In this document: one piece after another, positions 20,890 through 26,597 of the stretch
Layout: each line of letters starts with the position of its first letter
Numbering within the stretch: the stretch's first letter is position 1
From: Candidatus Aenigmatarchaeota archaeon
Lineage (GTDB): Archaea; Aenigmatarchaeota; Aenigmatarchaeia; CG10238-14; SCSR01
Reading direction: 5' to 3'
Length of the DNA stretch: 64,000 bases
Assembly: GCA_016181005.1 (NCBI GenBank)
Contig: JACPAE010000001.1
Span: 124,001 to 188,000 of the forward strand
The notes under the pieces: generated by a model
Told to the model about the DNA's origin: nothing
Databases searched by the model: none
Seen by the model: only the letters and a program-made list of their open reading frames with translations
Translations under genes and position numbers: made by a program

Positions 20890-21348
20890 ATGAAAATTTT
20901 GATGCCGACAAGCCCTGGTGGACATTTGAAACAGAGCCTATTGCTGGCCAATCGTCTTAAAATGAAGTTTGATTTAGTTTTCGTAACTTACAAGACGCCT
21001 CTAACAAAAGAAATTTTAAAAAACTACAATACAGAGTTCGTTATAGATCCGTATAGGGGAATAAAATCACTGTTTAGATATCCTGTCCTAGTACTTCAAG
21101 CTTTAGGTATACTACTAAAAGAGAGACCCAATGCAATTGTTACTCCCGGTTCAAATATACCTATACCATTCTGCTACTTGGGCAAACTGTTAGGTATAAA
21201 GGTTATTTTCATAGAAAGCTGGTCTAGGGTCAAGACTCGTTCCACATCTGGTAAATTTGCATATAAGATAGCAGATCTATTTTTTATTCAATGGAAACCC
21301 TTAAAAAAACTCTATCCTAAAGCTGTATATGCCGGTAGGTTTATGTGA
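20890..21348 (+). CDS. alg14: Alg14-like glycosyltransferase subunit
   Basis: 152 residues. The N-terminal PTSPGGHLKQ loop and the FIESWSRVKTRS segment (about residue 108) are hallmarks of Alg14/EpsE-type proteins. These anchor and activate the Alg13 catalytic subunit and supply half of a GT-B active site. The eukaryotic pair adds the second GlcNAc to dolichyl-PP-GlcNAc. The stop overlaps the alg13-like GTG start by four bases, so equimolar synthesis is likely. Confidence 0.85.
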   Translation: MKILMPTSPGGHLKQSLLLANRLKMKFDLVFVTYKTPLTKEILKNYNTEFVIDPYRGIKSLFRYPVLVLQALGILLKERPNAIVTPGSNIPIPFCYLGKLLGIKVIFIESWSRVKTRSTSGKFAYKIADLFFIQWKPLKKLYPKAVYAGRFM

Positions 21349-21788
21349 TATTCGTAATTGCTGGGGAACCAAGTTTTGAAGAATTGATAAAAGAAATCGA
21401 TAGAATAGTACCGGAATTAAAAGAACCTGTAATAGCGCAGATAGGAAACGGTAAATATATCCCAAAAAATTGCAAATGGTTCAGAGTTCATTTTCCTCTA
21501 TATCCATATTATAAGAAAGCAGATATTATTGTGTCGCATCATGGCGCAGGCACTATATTTGAGGTGCTGAAATTTCACAAAAAGCTTATTTGTGTGGAAA
21601 ATGCTTTCAAAGGACGCAATCCGGATCTCATGAGTGAGTTAAGTAAAGGAGGGTATTTGATTGATTGTAAAAAAATTAGTGACTTGAAGAAATGTATTAG
21701 TTTGGCTAGAAAAACAAAGATAAAAAAATACAAGTCCCCTAAATGTGAAATTGGCGAAACAATTATAAAATTTTTGAACCGGGATTAA
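21345..21788 (+). CDS. alg13: Alg13-like glycosyltransferase catalytic subunit
   Basis: 147 residues matching the GT28 C-terminal domain. VSHHGAGTIFEVL (about residue 65) and GRNPDLMSELSKGG form the UDP-sugar pocket. The start is GTG inside the alg14 stop. With Alg14 it would extend the lipid-linked sugar made by the transferase at 2797-3825. The 3' end overlaps the convergent polymerase gene by four bases. The sugar transferred is not determined. Confidence 0.85.
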   Translation: MIFVIAGEPSFEELIKEIDRIVPELKEPVIAQIGNGKYIPKNCKWFRVHFPLYPYYKKADIIVSHHGAGTIFEVLKFHKKLICVENAFKGRNPDLMSELSKGGYLIDCKKISDLKKCISLARKTKIKKYKSPKCEIGETIIKFLNRD

Positions 21789-24481
21789 GTTAATCGTGTT
21801 GGCGACAAGTACCGAGACTTTACACCATTAAACTCAAACAACAGTTCGCCGTGACATTGCAGGCATTTTCCTGCTAACGGCACTGCCTTGTACAGTGTGT
21901 CGCAATTTAGGCAAGAAAACGAGTCGTACGCTGGTAGGGGCTGCTGCAGGGTTTCTCCGTTTGTCGGCTTTATCCTGTTGCCCCTGAACAATTCTTTCAG
22001 TAACATCTGCCTTCCCAGTCCTGTCAATTCGTTTTTACTAATCCCGATGACTTCAAAGACCCTTTCCAAAGGAGGCAATATCTGATTCTCAATATAGTAT
22101 CTTGAATCGACTGCTATCTTATTTTCCTTCACGTAATCAGGATCCTCCGCGCGTTCGGACAGCAGCTGCATTCCTTTGACTATAACAAACCCCACGCGGT
22201 CACCAACGCCTGGCGACGAACCGTTTCTCTTCTTCAATTTCTTAACAAGCTCGACGTGAGGTTGTATCCCTTTATATGAACTTATTGCCTTGGATATGCT
22301 TTTCGTAATCACTAGGTCTTCAATGGGAACCTCGTTTCTTTCAAGCCTTTGCGTGATATCCTTAACGTACCTAAATGCCTTTTTTGTATCCTGCTCTTTC
22401 AACAAAATATTTAATACTTCAAACAACGTCTTGGTTGTAGCGTCGCACCAGTCGCGTCTGACTGTCTCAATGCCTTTCATCACTATTTCTTCTTTCCATT
22501 CACCGTCAATTTTTTCATAGCTTAAACCTGCATATCTTTTTTTCGAAAGAATTAAAAGCGACTTGTAAACACTTTCAATTTTTAACTGGACTATGCCGTC
22601 GAGTTCTGTATTCACCAATTTTTCGACTTCATGACCGATTCTAACCGCCTCGTCTAAATCTCTCGTATTAGTCTTGACCATTATTGAATCTGTGTCCCCG
22701 TAGACTACCTGGTAGCTGGTGCCTTTTTCCACTATCTCCTTAGTCCTGTTTATCAGAAACCTACCGCATCCAGTGATCGTATTCGCGATTTCCATGATGT
22801 ACAATCTCGCCCTTAGGTATCCTGTGTATCCGTAGAATGCGTTCGTCATTATTTTAAGGGCAAGCTGTTTTGCCTCCAGGATTCTCTTAATCTCCCCACT
22901 AGATTTCCTTACACTGTCTCTAACCTTGTCCCTTTCAAATATCAACCGTTTTAAAATTGCAGGTATGACACCTTCCCTAACTTTTGGCGAGACGAACTTT
23001 GTCTCATAGGGTGTCGTTATGGTGTCCGCTCCATTGTTTTCATCCTTGATAAGCGTTGTTGGACAGATATTGTAAGCTATGAAAATAGACGGGTACATCG
23101 ACTTGAAATCAAGATAAACCACAGATTCTGTATGCAGCCCAAGCGTCGGTTCTAGCACCAGCGCGCCTTTTAGTGTTTGTATCTCGGTTTCTTCGGAGTG
23201 CGTTCCATCGACTGGTTTGTCTGGCAGTATGAAGCTATGAAGGTTGAACTCTCGCAGCAGAAGGTTCTCAACCCTTTGCGCCTCCCCACCGTCAAGGCAG
23301 TCCTGTAGTAGAAGTCCAGACACCTTACTCAACTCAAGAAACTTGTCTATAAACGACTTTTCTAAGAGAAGTCTTAGTGGGAGCACGGAATCTTTTTCCG
23401 CATAGTCTATCAGCTTTGACAGCTGTTCTTCCGTTCCGTGCCAGTATGAATATATTTCGCTGTGCGGGATGTTTATTTTTTCATCGTTCAGAAGTGCGCG
23501 GGACACGTCACCCAATCCCAAACGCTTCAATCTTAGATTTCCTTTTTGTATTGACTCTTTAATCAAGGCATACGTGTCTACAATCACCCTGCCTGTAACA
23601 GTGTTCCTGAATTGTTGTCCGAATTTTCTTGAAGAAGCCGGTTTTTGATTGCACCTTCCTATTGTTTGATGGAGCTTGTTTTCTCTAAGCCTATCGAGGA
23701 TGTATGGAAAATCGAAGCCGTTTATATTATATCCTACCAACAGGTCTGGGTCGTAGGCTTCGATCACTCTTAAGAATTCTTGGAGCATTTCCTTCTCTGA
23801 AGAGAAGACTTTTACGTTGCTTCTTACTCTAGTCCTTTTTGCGACCAGGGACAGGCTCTTGTGGTTATTGTAGTCGGGATTAAATGTAAGGCTTATTATT
23901 CCGATTTCATCTTTTCTAGAATCTGGTATGACATCTTTAGATATCGTCTCTATGTCTATGGAGAGATACTTGAAACTGCCATTCTCAGGGTTCTCAACTT
24001 CGGCAAAATCCTCGACGTCCATCGAAATGTCGCACTTTACCGTGTTAGTCTTGGACGGCCTGCCTTTTACGTTAAGCCATTTAAAGCCGGATATTCCCAT
24101 GTCTGCCATAAACCTGTACTTGAAAAGTATGTCAGACTCGAACACCGATTGTACAAAACTCTCCTTCTTTAGCGATTCCCTTACTTCCGGTACCTTTGAC
24201 GGATCTGTCAAGGTTACTTTCAGCATCTTCGTTTTTTCCTTTTGGTAATTAATCGACTTGAATCTCTCAACTTCTTCAATGTTTTTTATTATTTGGAAGT
24301 TTTTTTTCAGAAATTCCACCACCTTGTCCTTCTGTTTCGGCAGTACGTAGAAATAGGGATAGAACCCCCTATAAAAACCGCAGACAGCTTTACCTTCCTT
24401 GGTTTTGCCGAAAAGTCTGACTATTGGAGCATTGTCAAGAACTATATAATCGCAGTCTAGAAGCTGAAATTGAATTTCCAT
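21785..24481 (-). CDS. polB: Family B DNA polymerase with a DP2-like C-terminal zinc ribbon
   Basis: 898 residues. Exonuclease motifs: LSIDIET, GYNINGFDFPYIL, YAEKDSVLPL. Polymerase motifs: LDFKSMYPSI (A), KIMTNAFYGYTG (B), VVYGDTDS (C); all catalytic acids are kept, so the enzyme should be active. After the thumb a tail of about 60 residues carries CxxC-x11-CxxC (CLNC ... CLQC) followed by a KSRYL-like end. This resembles the C-terminal zinc finger of the PolD large subunit, which binds the small subunit. The gene follows a DP1-like gene by seven bases. Confidence 0.92.
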   Translation of the reverse strand: MEIQFQLLDCDYIVLDNAPIVRLFGKTKEGKAVCGFYRGFYPYFYVLPKQKDKVVEFLKKNFQIIKNIEEVERFKSINYQKEKTKMLKVTLTDPSKVPEVRESLKKESFVQSVFESDILFKYRFMADMGISGFKWLNVKGRPSKTNTVKCDISMDVEDFAEVENPENGSFKYLSIDIETISKDVIPDSRKDEIGIISLTFNPDYNNHKSLSLVAKRTRVRSNVKVFSSEKEMLQEFLRVIEAYDPDLLVGYNINGFDFPYILDRLRENKLHQTIGRCNQKPASSRKFGQQFRNTVTGRVIVDTYALIKESIQKGNLRLKRLGLGDVSRALLNDEKINIPHSEIYSYWHGTEEQLSKLIDYAEKDSVLPLRLLLEKSFIDKFLELSKVSGLLLQDCLDGGEAQRVENLLLREFNLHSFILPDKPVDGTHSEETEIQTLKGALVLEPTLGLHTESVVYLDFKSMYPSIFIAYNICPTTLIKDENNGADTITTPYETKFVSPKVREGVIPAILKRLIFERDKVRDSVRKSSGEIKRILEAKQLALKIMTNAFYGYTGYLRARLYIMEIANTITGCGRFLINRTKEIVEKGTSYQVVYGDTDSIMVKTNTRDLDEAVRIGHEVEKLVNTELDGIVQLKIESVYKSLLILSKKRYAGLSYEKIDGEWKEEIVMKGIETVRRDWCDATTKTLFEVLNILLKEQDTKKAFRYVKDITQRLERNEVPIEDLVITKSISKAISSYKGIQPHVELVKKLKKRNGSSPGVGDRVGFVIVKGMQLLSERAEDPDYVKENKIAVDSRYYIENQILPPLERVFEVIGISKNELTGLGRQMLLKELFRGNRIKPTNGETLQQPLPAYDSFSCLNCDTLYKAVPLAGKCLQCHGELLFEFNGVKSRYLSPTRLT

Positions 24482-24488
24482 ACTCTAG

Positions 24489-25574
24489 TTATAAGAAGCT
24501 AGTTTTAAATATTTCCCGCGTCTGCAAATCGACATGCCATAAAATAGGAACTGCGCTATCTCCGCCTAACAAGACTGTTGTTCCCTTGTAATTGTAAACT
24601 GCTGGGTCCCCTTTAGTCATGATGATAATGTCCGGCACTATGTCAAGGAAATATATGTTGCCTTCATGAAGACTGCTGGAAGGATTTAGATTCCGCCTTT
24701 TAAGCAGCAGCGTCATTGTTTTTTCCATGTCAATATCCCACTTTTCCGCATAATGGGACAAGAGATTGCTACTTGTCAGGAAAATTTTAACGTTGTTGAA
24801 TTCAATTAGGGCTGGGTTGGGATACAACATTTCTTCCTTGTTATTCGCTTCCCCTCCGAAAAAAAATATTTCATGTTCGCTTAAATCGGCTTTCAGCCTT
24901 CCTATATCAATATCGGTTTCCAACAAAAAAATCTTTGTGGAAGGTTGTTTTCGTACCAACTCCAATAACTTGCCATAATTTTTTATGTCGAGTTTTGTTG
25001 GAAGGATTGTGATATGACTGGGTTGTTCGCTTTTTACAACAGCCCTTTTAATTTCTATGTCAGGAAATATCACCTCTGTTACTTTAATGAATCCTTCTTC
25101 CTTTTCACAGACTAGCGCGACAATATCATTTTCAAGCAGGTGTTCTAAAATCTCTGGGGACGCTTCAAGAGTTAAACTGCCTGTATTGTCCTCTATTTTA
25201 ATTTCCCTTTCACCAACTTGTGTGACCAATGCGATTAACGTGAACTTTGGCAGTTTGTCGGAGATTCTGTTTGCCGATATTAGATTTTCGAGATTTTTTT
25301 TAGCTAAAAGAGTTTTTATAAAACTGTACCGGTAGTTGATGAGTTCCGTTGCATCTTCTACAGAATACCTTTTCTTAAGCTCAAGTTGTTTGAGGATTTT
25401 GACAGACCTTCCCTTTAATATAAAATCTTCGCTTAGAACAAGTGGCAGCTCTTTTAGCGACATGCTCGTTATTTCTTCTAGCCTCTCAGGATGATTATAA
25501 AGTGTGTCCAATGCTTCGCTATTGACTTGAATGCCCTTATTTAGGAAGTGCTTTAGAATTTCGGACTTGTCCAT
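24489..25574 (-). CDS. PolD small-subunit (DP1) homologue with lost phosphoesterase residues
   Basis: 361 residues, against about 470-620 for active DP1. An N-terminal helical region leads to the YRYSFIKTLL segment, an OB-fold (IKIEDNTGSLTLE ... VTEVIFPDIEIKRAV, about residues 118-180) and a calcineurin-like fold. LLLKRRNLNP and FLDIVPDIII align with the DP1 segment around IDEVPD. The metal motifs are gone: GNHD appears as GGEAN and GHVH as TKGDP. The loss of these residues mirrors eukaryotic polymerase B-subunits. It lies directly upstream of polB in one operon, so it is probably the polymerase partner. Confidence 0.8.
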   Translation of the reverse strand: MDKSEILKHFLNKGIQVNSEALDTLYNHPERLEEITSMSLKELPLVLSEDFILKGRSVKILKQLELKKRYSVEDATELINYRYSFIKTLLAKKNLENLISANRISDKLPKFTLIALVTQVGEREIKIEDNTGSLTLEASPEILEHLLENDIVALVCEKEEGFIKVTEVIFPDIEIKRAVVKSEQPSHITILPTKLDIKNYGKLLELVRKQPSTKIFLLETDIDIGRLKADLSEHEIFFFGGEANNKEEMLYPNPALIEFNNVKIFLTSSNLLSHYAEKWDIDMEKTMTLLLKRRNLNPSSSLHEGNIYFLDIVPDIIIMTKGDPAVYNYKGTTVLLGGDSAVPILWHVDLQTREIFKTSFL

Positions 25575-25591: not shown

Positions 25592-25858
25592 TTACTTTTT
25601 TAAGGTATATACTATGAGGCCGTCCTTGGCGCTGATTTTTGAGTGGGGTAATGGAAGAGGTTGTATCTTCCCGGCTTCGACAAGCTCCTGAATGTACTTG
25701 TTGACCGTATTCCAGCTGACGTCGTGGTCGGTCAGCTTTGATATCTCTTTTGAGATTGTGGATGTTGTAACTGGTGTGCTGAACGTAGTTAGTATTTGTA
25801 CAATTCGGTTTTGCACTTCCCTGCGAATGTTGGGTCGCCCACGCTTCATAAAGAACAT
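25592..25858 (-). CDS. Small winged-helix DNA-binding protein
   Basis: 88 residues, basic at the N-terminus (KRGRPNIRREVQ). A winged helix follows: TSTISKEISKL is helix 2, SWNTVNKYIQELVEAGKIQPL the recognition helix and wing. First gene of the operon leading to the DP1-like and PolB genes; the next start is 17 bases away. A TATA-like TTTATAAAAATC ends about 25 bases upstream. ATG 25849 is an alternative start. Whether it regulates its own operon or is a replication factor is unknown. Confidence 0.72.
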   Translation of the reverse strand: MFFMKRGRPNIRREVQNRIVQILTTFSTPVTTSTISKEISKLTDHDVSWNTVNKYIQELVEAGKIQPLPLPHSKISAKDGLIVYTLKK

Positions 25859-26180: not shown

Positions 26181-26597
26181 TCATAAAAATTTAGTCAAAC
26201 CACTAATTAGGAAAAACTTTGTGATAACAGCTCTCACAAAATTATCTTTATTTCTAACTGGAGAATAGCTTACAGGGTTCGAGTGTTTTATCTTTAATAA
26301 CAGTTCAGTTTTCACCAGTCTCTCAAGACGTTTTCTAAAACCTTCCACACCTATCCTCATCTTATGAACAGTCTTCATCTCATGGTATAGTATTGGAAAG
26401 CAGTGCGGTTGGCAGTCAAATGGGTAGTCCTTTCCAGTCATGTAGAATTTACGCAGTATCTGAACATCAACGAAATCCAACCTCTCGGCAAGTTCGATTG
26501 CCAAGTTGGCGGCAGAGTTATTCTCCTCTAAGAGGGAATCTTCACGAAGCGGTGAAATAAAACTTTGTTCCATAAACAACAGCTCAGGAAATACCAT
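26181..26597 (-). CDS. Putative winged-helix protein of unknown function
   Basis: 138 residues. Predicted helices around AERLDFVDVQILRKFYM and MRIGVEGFRKRLERLVKTELLLKIKHSNPVSYSPV look like a winged helix-turn-helix with a wing. One CxPxC (FDCQPHCFP) lies in the middle, which could bind metal or a disulphide. ATG at 26573 would remove eight residues. No family is recognised with confidence. Confidence 0.6.
   Translation of the reverse strand: MVFPELLFMEQSFISPLREDSLLEENNSAANLAIELAERLDFVDVQILRKFYMTGKDYPFDCQPHCFPILYHEMKTVHKMRIGVEGFRKRLERLVKTELLLKIKHSNPVSYSPVRNKDNFVRAVITKFFLISGLTKFL

Follow-up and report, generated by a model that had tools for sequence, protein, structure and literature searches.

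In a small archaeon of the Aenigmatarchaeota, the replicative DNA polymerase is very probably made up of the products of two adjoining genes, one catalytic and the other structural. The first product is a B-family polymerase (PolB), and its C-terminal tail would dock onto the second, a homologue of the PolD subunit DP1. Both genes lie in the window, by which we mean the whole stretch of 64,000 nucleotides that was analysed. It has long been asked how the eukaryotic B-family polymerases acquired a docking tail derived from PolD and an inactive DP1 partner, and the operon in the window has a eukaryote-like layout as the apparently sole replicase of its host. The phylum also holds graded intermediates, from an intact DP1 with DP2, through a DP1 in which GNHD and motif IV alone are changed, to a DP1 without motifs, so that the proposed steps can be tested with recombinant proteins.

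Because Kazlauskas et al. (2020) described this arrangement, the finding stands but is not new in kind, and the window is a further case of the B6-aenigma1 type. Their main text reports B6-aenigma1 PolBs in Aenigmarchaeota with one DP2-like motif, an inactive DP1 and DP2 missing, and already proposes the link to the eukaryotic polymerases (PMC7544198). The window resembles this description and its inactive DP1 of the Aenigma_GB_GCA_002789635 type: a probably delta-like PolB with exactly one C-terminal metal motif, which is DP2-like, is accompanied by an inactive DP1 in an Aenigmatarchaeota host without DP2. Nothing of substance separates the two as far as that main text goes, the missing RR pair of the window tail aside. 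Neither an operon nor adjacency or neighbourhood of the PolB and DP1 genes is mentioned in the main text of PMC7544198, and a literature search for the same arrangement returned no other paper. Added here are the mutual exclusion of tailed PolB and DP2 over 156 genomes, the adjacency in 30 loci and the series of DP1 motifs, parts of which may already be contained in the supplements of PMC7544198.

The polymerase core and its zinc tail

The features of the two genes are as follows.

21785–24481, minus strand: catalytic subunit of a B-family DNA polymerase, probably B6-type and delta-like, 898 aa, from Pfam, PDB matches and motifs
21986–22012, minus strand: RQMLLKELF, putative PIP-box-like clamp motif ahead of the zinc tail, from the relatives' alignment
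21788–21916, minus strand: C-terminal zinc tail, homologue of Zn-III of PolD DP2, with cysteines at 21902–21913 and 21854–21865, from the tail profile, NCBIfam and conserved cysteines
21878–21892, minus strand: place of the DP2 docking loop KxRRxP, here YKAVP with RR lost, from the relatives' alignment
24489–25574, minus strand: B-subunit-like homologue of DP1, 361 aa, with an OB and phosphodiesterase fold and its catalytic motifs lost, from profile and AlphaFold
24843–24857, minus strand: GGEAN in the place of GNHD, catalytic motif III, from alignment with active DP1s of the phylum
24603–24617, minus strand: TKGDP in the place of GHxH, motif V, from alignment

The translated PolB frame contains SIDIET, NINGFDFP, YAEKDS, LDFKSMYPS, KIMTNAFYG, YGDTDS and KKRY. 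The intact catalytic motifs claimed in a sequence-only reading of the window are thus borne out, the exonuclease and polymerase sets both being complete and in agreement with Pfam (DNA_pol_B, 5.2e-117; exo1, 7e-37). The top solved relative is the catalytic subunit of human Pol delta (3.3e-108), with an archaeal PolB a close second (8.6e-105), and the core, judged from these solved relatives rather than from its placement in a tree, is consistent with the delta-like clade of B6-aenigma1. A viral origin of the tailed PolB was considered and rejected: among the matches listed, the best relative is 27% identical and none reaches the cysteines. The PolB stop overlaps that of a convergent Alg13-like glycosyltransferase gene (21345–21788, plus strand) by four bases, at 21785–21788.

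The polymerase ends in C-x2-C-x12-C-x2-C (CLNC-x12-CLQC, 21854–21913) followed by 22 residues; the two cysteine pairs expected from the sequence-only reading are present, and its spacing of 11 residues is corrected to 12. All four cysteines and this spacing are kept in 50/50 tails, the cysteines also being invariant in a set of 22 relatives, and they would presumably bind zinc. That the tail resembles the C-terminal zinc finger of DP2 had been suggested in the sequence-only reading and is confirmed by profile comparison. The tail profile matches solved DP2 structures (6knb_B at 9.1e-11, another at 1.6e-8) exactly over Zn-III, models of DP2, the PolD large subunit, were matched first by all 30 relatives' tails in an NCBIfam scan, and the window tail alone matches DP2 models at 3.5e-5. 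The proposed likeness of the KSRYL end also holds, NGVKSRYL aligning with GTISKYL of a canonical DP2 from the same phylum. An unrelated zinc ribbon was rejected as the identity of the tail, generic zinc models giving weaker, scattered matches in few members where DP2 models match 30/30.

In PolD, Zn-III of DP2, which bears KxRRxP, sits in the groove between the OB and phosphodiesterase domains of DP1, the RR pair acts in DP2–DP1 docking, and a peptide of 20 residues from Zn-III has nanomolar affinity for DP1 (PMC6355029). The RR pair is kept in 29 of 50 tails and lost in the other 21. The window tail has lost it too, with YKAVP instead of YRRxP, and may therefore dock less tightly or in a different way. 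The window tail also stops short of the DP2 helix that comes after Zn-III. Ahead of the tail, K/R-Q-x-x-hydrophobic is found at the PIP-like position in 48/50 relatives, and this motif is probably a PCNA binder.

A DP1-like protein without catalytic motifs

The DP1 homologue that the sequence-only reading had placed seven bases upstream of PolB (spacer 24482–24488) is indeed one. Its profile matches the DP1 chain of a PolD structure (6knb_A) at 8.5e-29, the homology being seen with the profile, while a single-sequence phmmer search against the PDB gave no match. The AlphaFold model (pLDDT 80) forms a complete OB-phosphodiesterase fold and superposes over about 305 residues on P. abyssi DP1 (Z 24.8) and on the Pol delta B-subunit (Z 23.3), with which Foldseek agrees. 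The loss of GNHD and GHVH noticed earlier likewise withstands alignment with active DP1s: GEAN and TKG stand in their places and every catalytic motif is gone, motif I falling in an alignment gap. Going by the Mre11 motif, we take the histidine of GNHD to be H451 of P. abyssi DP1. This residue, which corresponds to Mre11 H85, is essential for nuclease activity (PMC4996933).

The window protein is thus in all likelihood devoid of exonuclease activity and kept as a scaffold. Its gene might instead be a decaying relic beside a PolB that works alone, with a tail that is either vestigial or a binder of DNA or of some other protein. Such decay would fit the many families in which the phosphodiesterase part has shrunk or the motifs have been erased, some proteins measuring only about 310–340 aa, as well as the missing RR pair of the window tail. 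The OB part and the C-terminal NYKGT/TRE stretch are nevertheless conserved despite the catalytic loss, the gene is open and adjoins PolB in nearly all lineages, the model still gives the full fold, and persistence throughout a phylum is not what one expects of a relic; we consider this explanation improbable. In one relative (L033), in which the two genes are in frame, a read-through fusion was modelled with AlphaFold at pTM 0.59; the tail blocks reach pLDDT values of about 59 to 82, and the linker before the tail is predicted to be disordered.

Upstream of the DP1-like gene lies a small winged-helix-like gene (25592–25858, minus strand; weak Pfam match), and further on a small gene (26181–26597, minus strand) without a family match, similar genes ending in INGLTKFL being found at the same place in relatives.

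Genome content and gene linkage

The window genome (740 kb, 92.2% complete) encodes one PolB (PF00136). A profile search of it for DP2 (PF03833), in which the controls were detected, found none, and the three same-genus relatives (G001–G003) each have one PolB match and no DP2. A complete PolD elsewhere in the genome is thereby rejected, and with it the case of a decayed DP1 beside a complete PolD, although a completeness of 92% leaves room for a missed polymerase. With no DP2 and no other PolB in the genome, the PolB–DP1-like pair is likely to be the replicase of the organism.

Across the phylum, the tail profile matches 141 of 156 genomes and DP2 is present in ten, all of one family (f12). 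In f12 the best matches of the tail profile fall on DP2 frames of about 1100–1470 aa; in the other families they fall on PolB frames, which are about 900 aa long with some longer exceptions. Tailed PolB and DP2 are mutually exclusive over the 156 genomes. At each of the 30 loci examined, PolB has the DP1-like gene as its neighbour; one of these loci has about 650 bases between the two, and another, at a contig end, has only part of the DP1-like gene. In three families (f9, f15 and f32) the two genes are nearby on opposite strands, and in a related family orc1/cdc6 comes directly before the DP1-like gene and PolB after it.

One genome of the window's family (G015, 96% complete) yielded no tailed PolB, DP1 or DP2; because the PolB and DP1-like genes adjoin, a single assembly gap could account for this. 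Contig G120:C1 has two DP1-like genes (458643–459602 and 706021–706941), one adjoining PolB and the other elsewhere.

A proposed two-subunit replicase

In the replicase that we propose, PolB would use active sites of its own both to polymerize and to proofread, and its zinc module, derived from Zn-III of DP2, would dock in the OB-phosphodiesterase groove of the DP1-like protein. This partner, its exonuclease function gone, would persist as a scaffold in the manner of the eukaryotic B-subunits, and the PIP-like motif ahead of the tail probably binds PCNA. That the pair is instead an accessory or mobile-element polymerase, the chromosome being copied by another enzyme, accords with the mobile-element source proposed for this PolB in the main text of Kazlauskas et al. 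(PMC7544198) and with the second PolB of many relatives, but it is very unlikely given that the window genome has a sole PolB and no DP2, that the major clades of the PolB tree match the EF-2 and RpoA1 trees, as for a vertically inherited chromosomal gene, and that no close viral relative is found among the matches listed.

Comparison with known polymerases

With PolD, the window pair shares a DP1 homologue and a Zn-III docking module, but it has a PolB core instead of DP2, its DP1 lacks the exonuclease motifs (GEAN and TKG in their places), and its tail lacks both the helix and the PIP box that follow Zn-III in PolD. In Thermococcales the gene cluster has the order cdc6–DP1–DP2, and in the related family with the orc1/cdc6 gene, PolB stands where that cluster has DP2. 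With the eukaryotic Pol delta, alpha and epsilon and their B-subunits, the pair has in common the PolB core, for which Pol delta is the closest solved structure, the zinc tail and an inactive DP1-derived protein as predicted partner. The eukaryote-like PolB and B-subunit pair suggested in the sequence-only reading is therefore upheld by homology, fold, linkage and genome content, with binding between the two predicted. In metal motifs the pair differs: the eukaryotic C-terminal domain has two and the window tail one, and a further cysteine pair is absent from the 150 residues before the tail in all 50 relatives. Like the window protein, the B10 PolB of Heimdallarchaeota is archaeal and carries a C-terminal motif rich in cysteines; its C-terminal domain, however, falls outside the DP2 cluster in the main text of PMC7544198, whereas the window tail matches DP2.

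Motif decay and the history of PolD in the phylum

The seven aligned DP1s of f12 have the full set of five motifs intact, and GNHD is missing from every one of the 67 DP1s aligned from the other families. SDLH, GDxxD and GHxH are mostly retained in five of these (f7, f17, f25, f26 and f27), the best-kept proteins of f17 departing from active DP1 at GNHD (GNMD) and motif IV (IHD or VHD for YHG). The window's family, f1, is mixed, with several motifs in G005, G009 and G010 and none in the window, and in most remaining families all motifs are gone. Loss of GNHD outside f12 is universal in this sample, and the alignments point to a stepwise decay of the other motifs.

The sole PolD family, f12, falls within the tailed-PolB families in the EF-2 and RpoA1 analysis, whereas its DP1 lies outside the DP1s of those families. 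The combined EF-2 and RpoA1 tree places it beside the f7-like families (99/96) and rejects a group of all tailed families without it (p-AU 0.017), a grouping not rejected by RpoA1 alone (p 0.137); the PolB tree reproduces the main clades of the combined tree. The DP1 tree sets f12 outside the two tailed-PolB groups tested, with a p-AU of 0.02 against its joining the f7-like set, in a tree where rate artefacts are likely because the DP1s of the tailed groups evolve fast. Taken together, the nested position of f12 and the outside position of its DP1 suggest that the ancestor probably had a tailed PolB and that f12 kept or regained PolD. A possible course, which we put forward tentatively as somewhat short of an even chance, is a swap from PolD to PolB preserved in stages: a DP2-tailed PolB would have taken over DP1, the GNHD histidine would have been lost early, the remaining motifs would have decayed independently in different lineages, and f12 would have retained PolD from an ancestor with both enzymes or reverted to it.

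Several frames in the phylum are unusually long. One f12 DP1 frame (L092, G054:C21) measures 858 aa and has a long, intein-like in-frame insertion in phosphodiesterase motif II (GDLC/CDG). PolB frames of about 1320–1400 aa with the tail occur in G047:C67, G074:C6, G076:C9, G078:C2, G087:C32 and G090:C98 and probably contain inteins, the PolB match of G047 being interrupted near residue 597.
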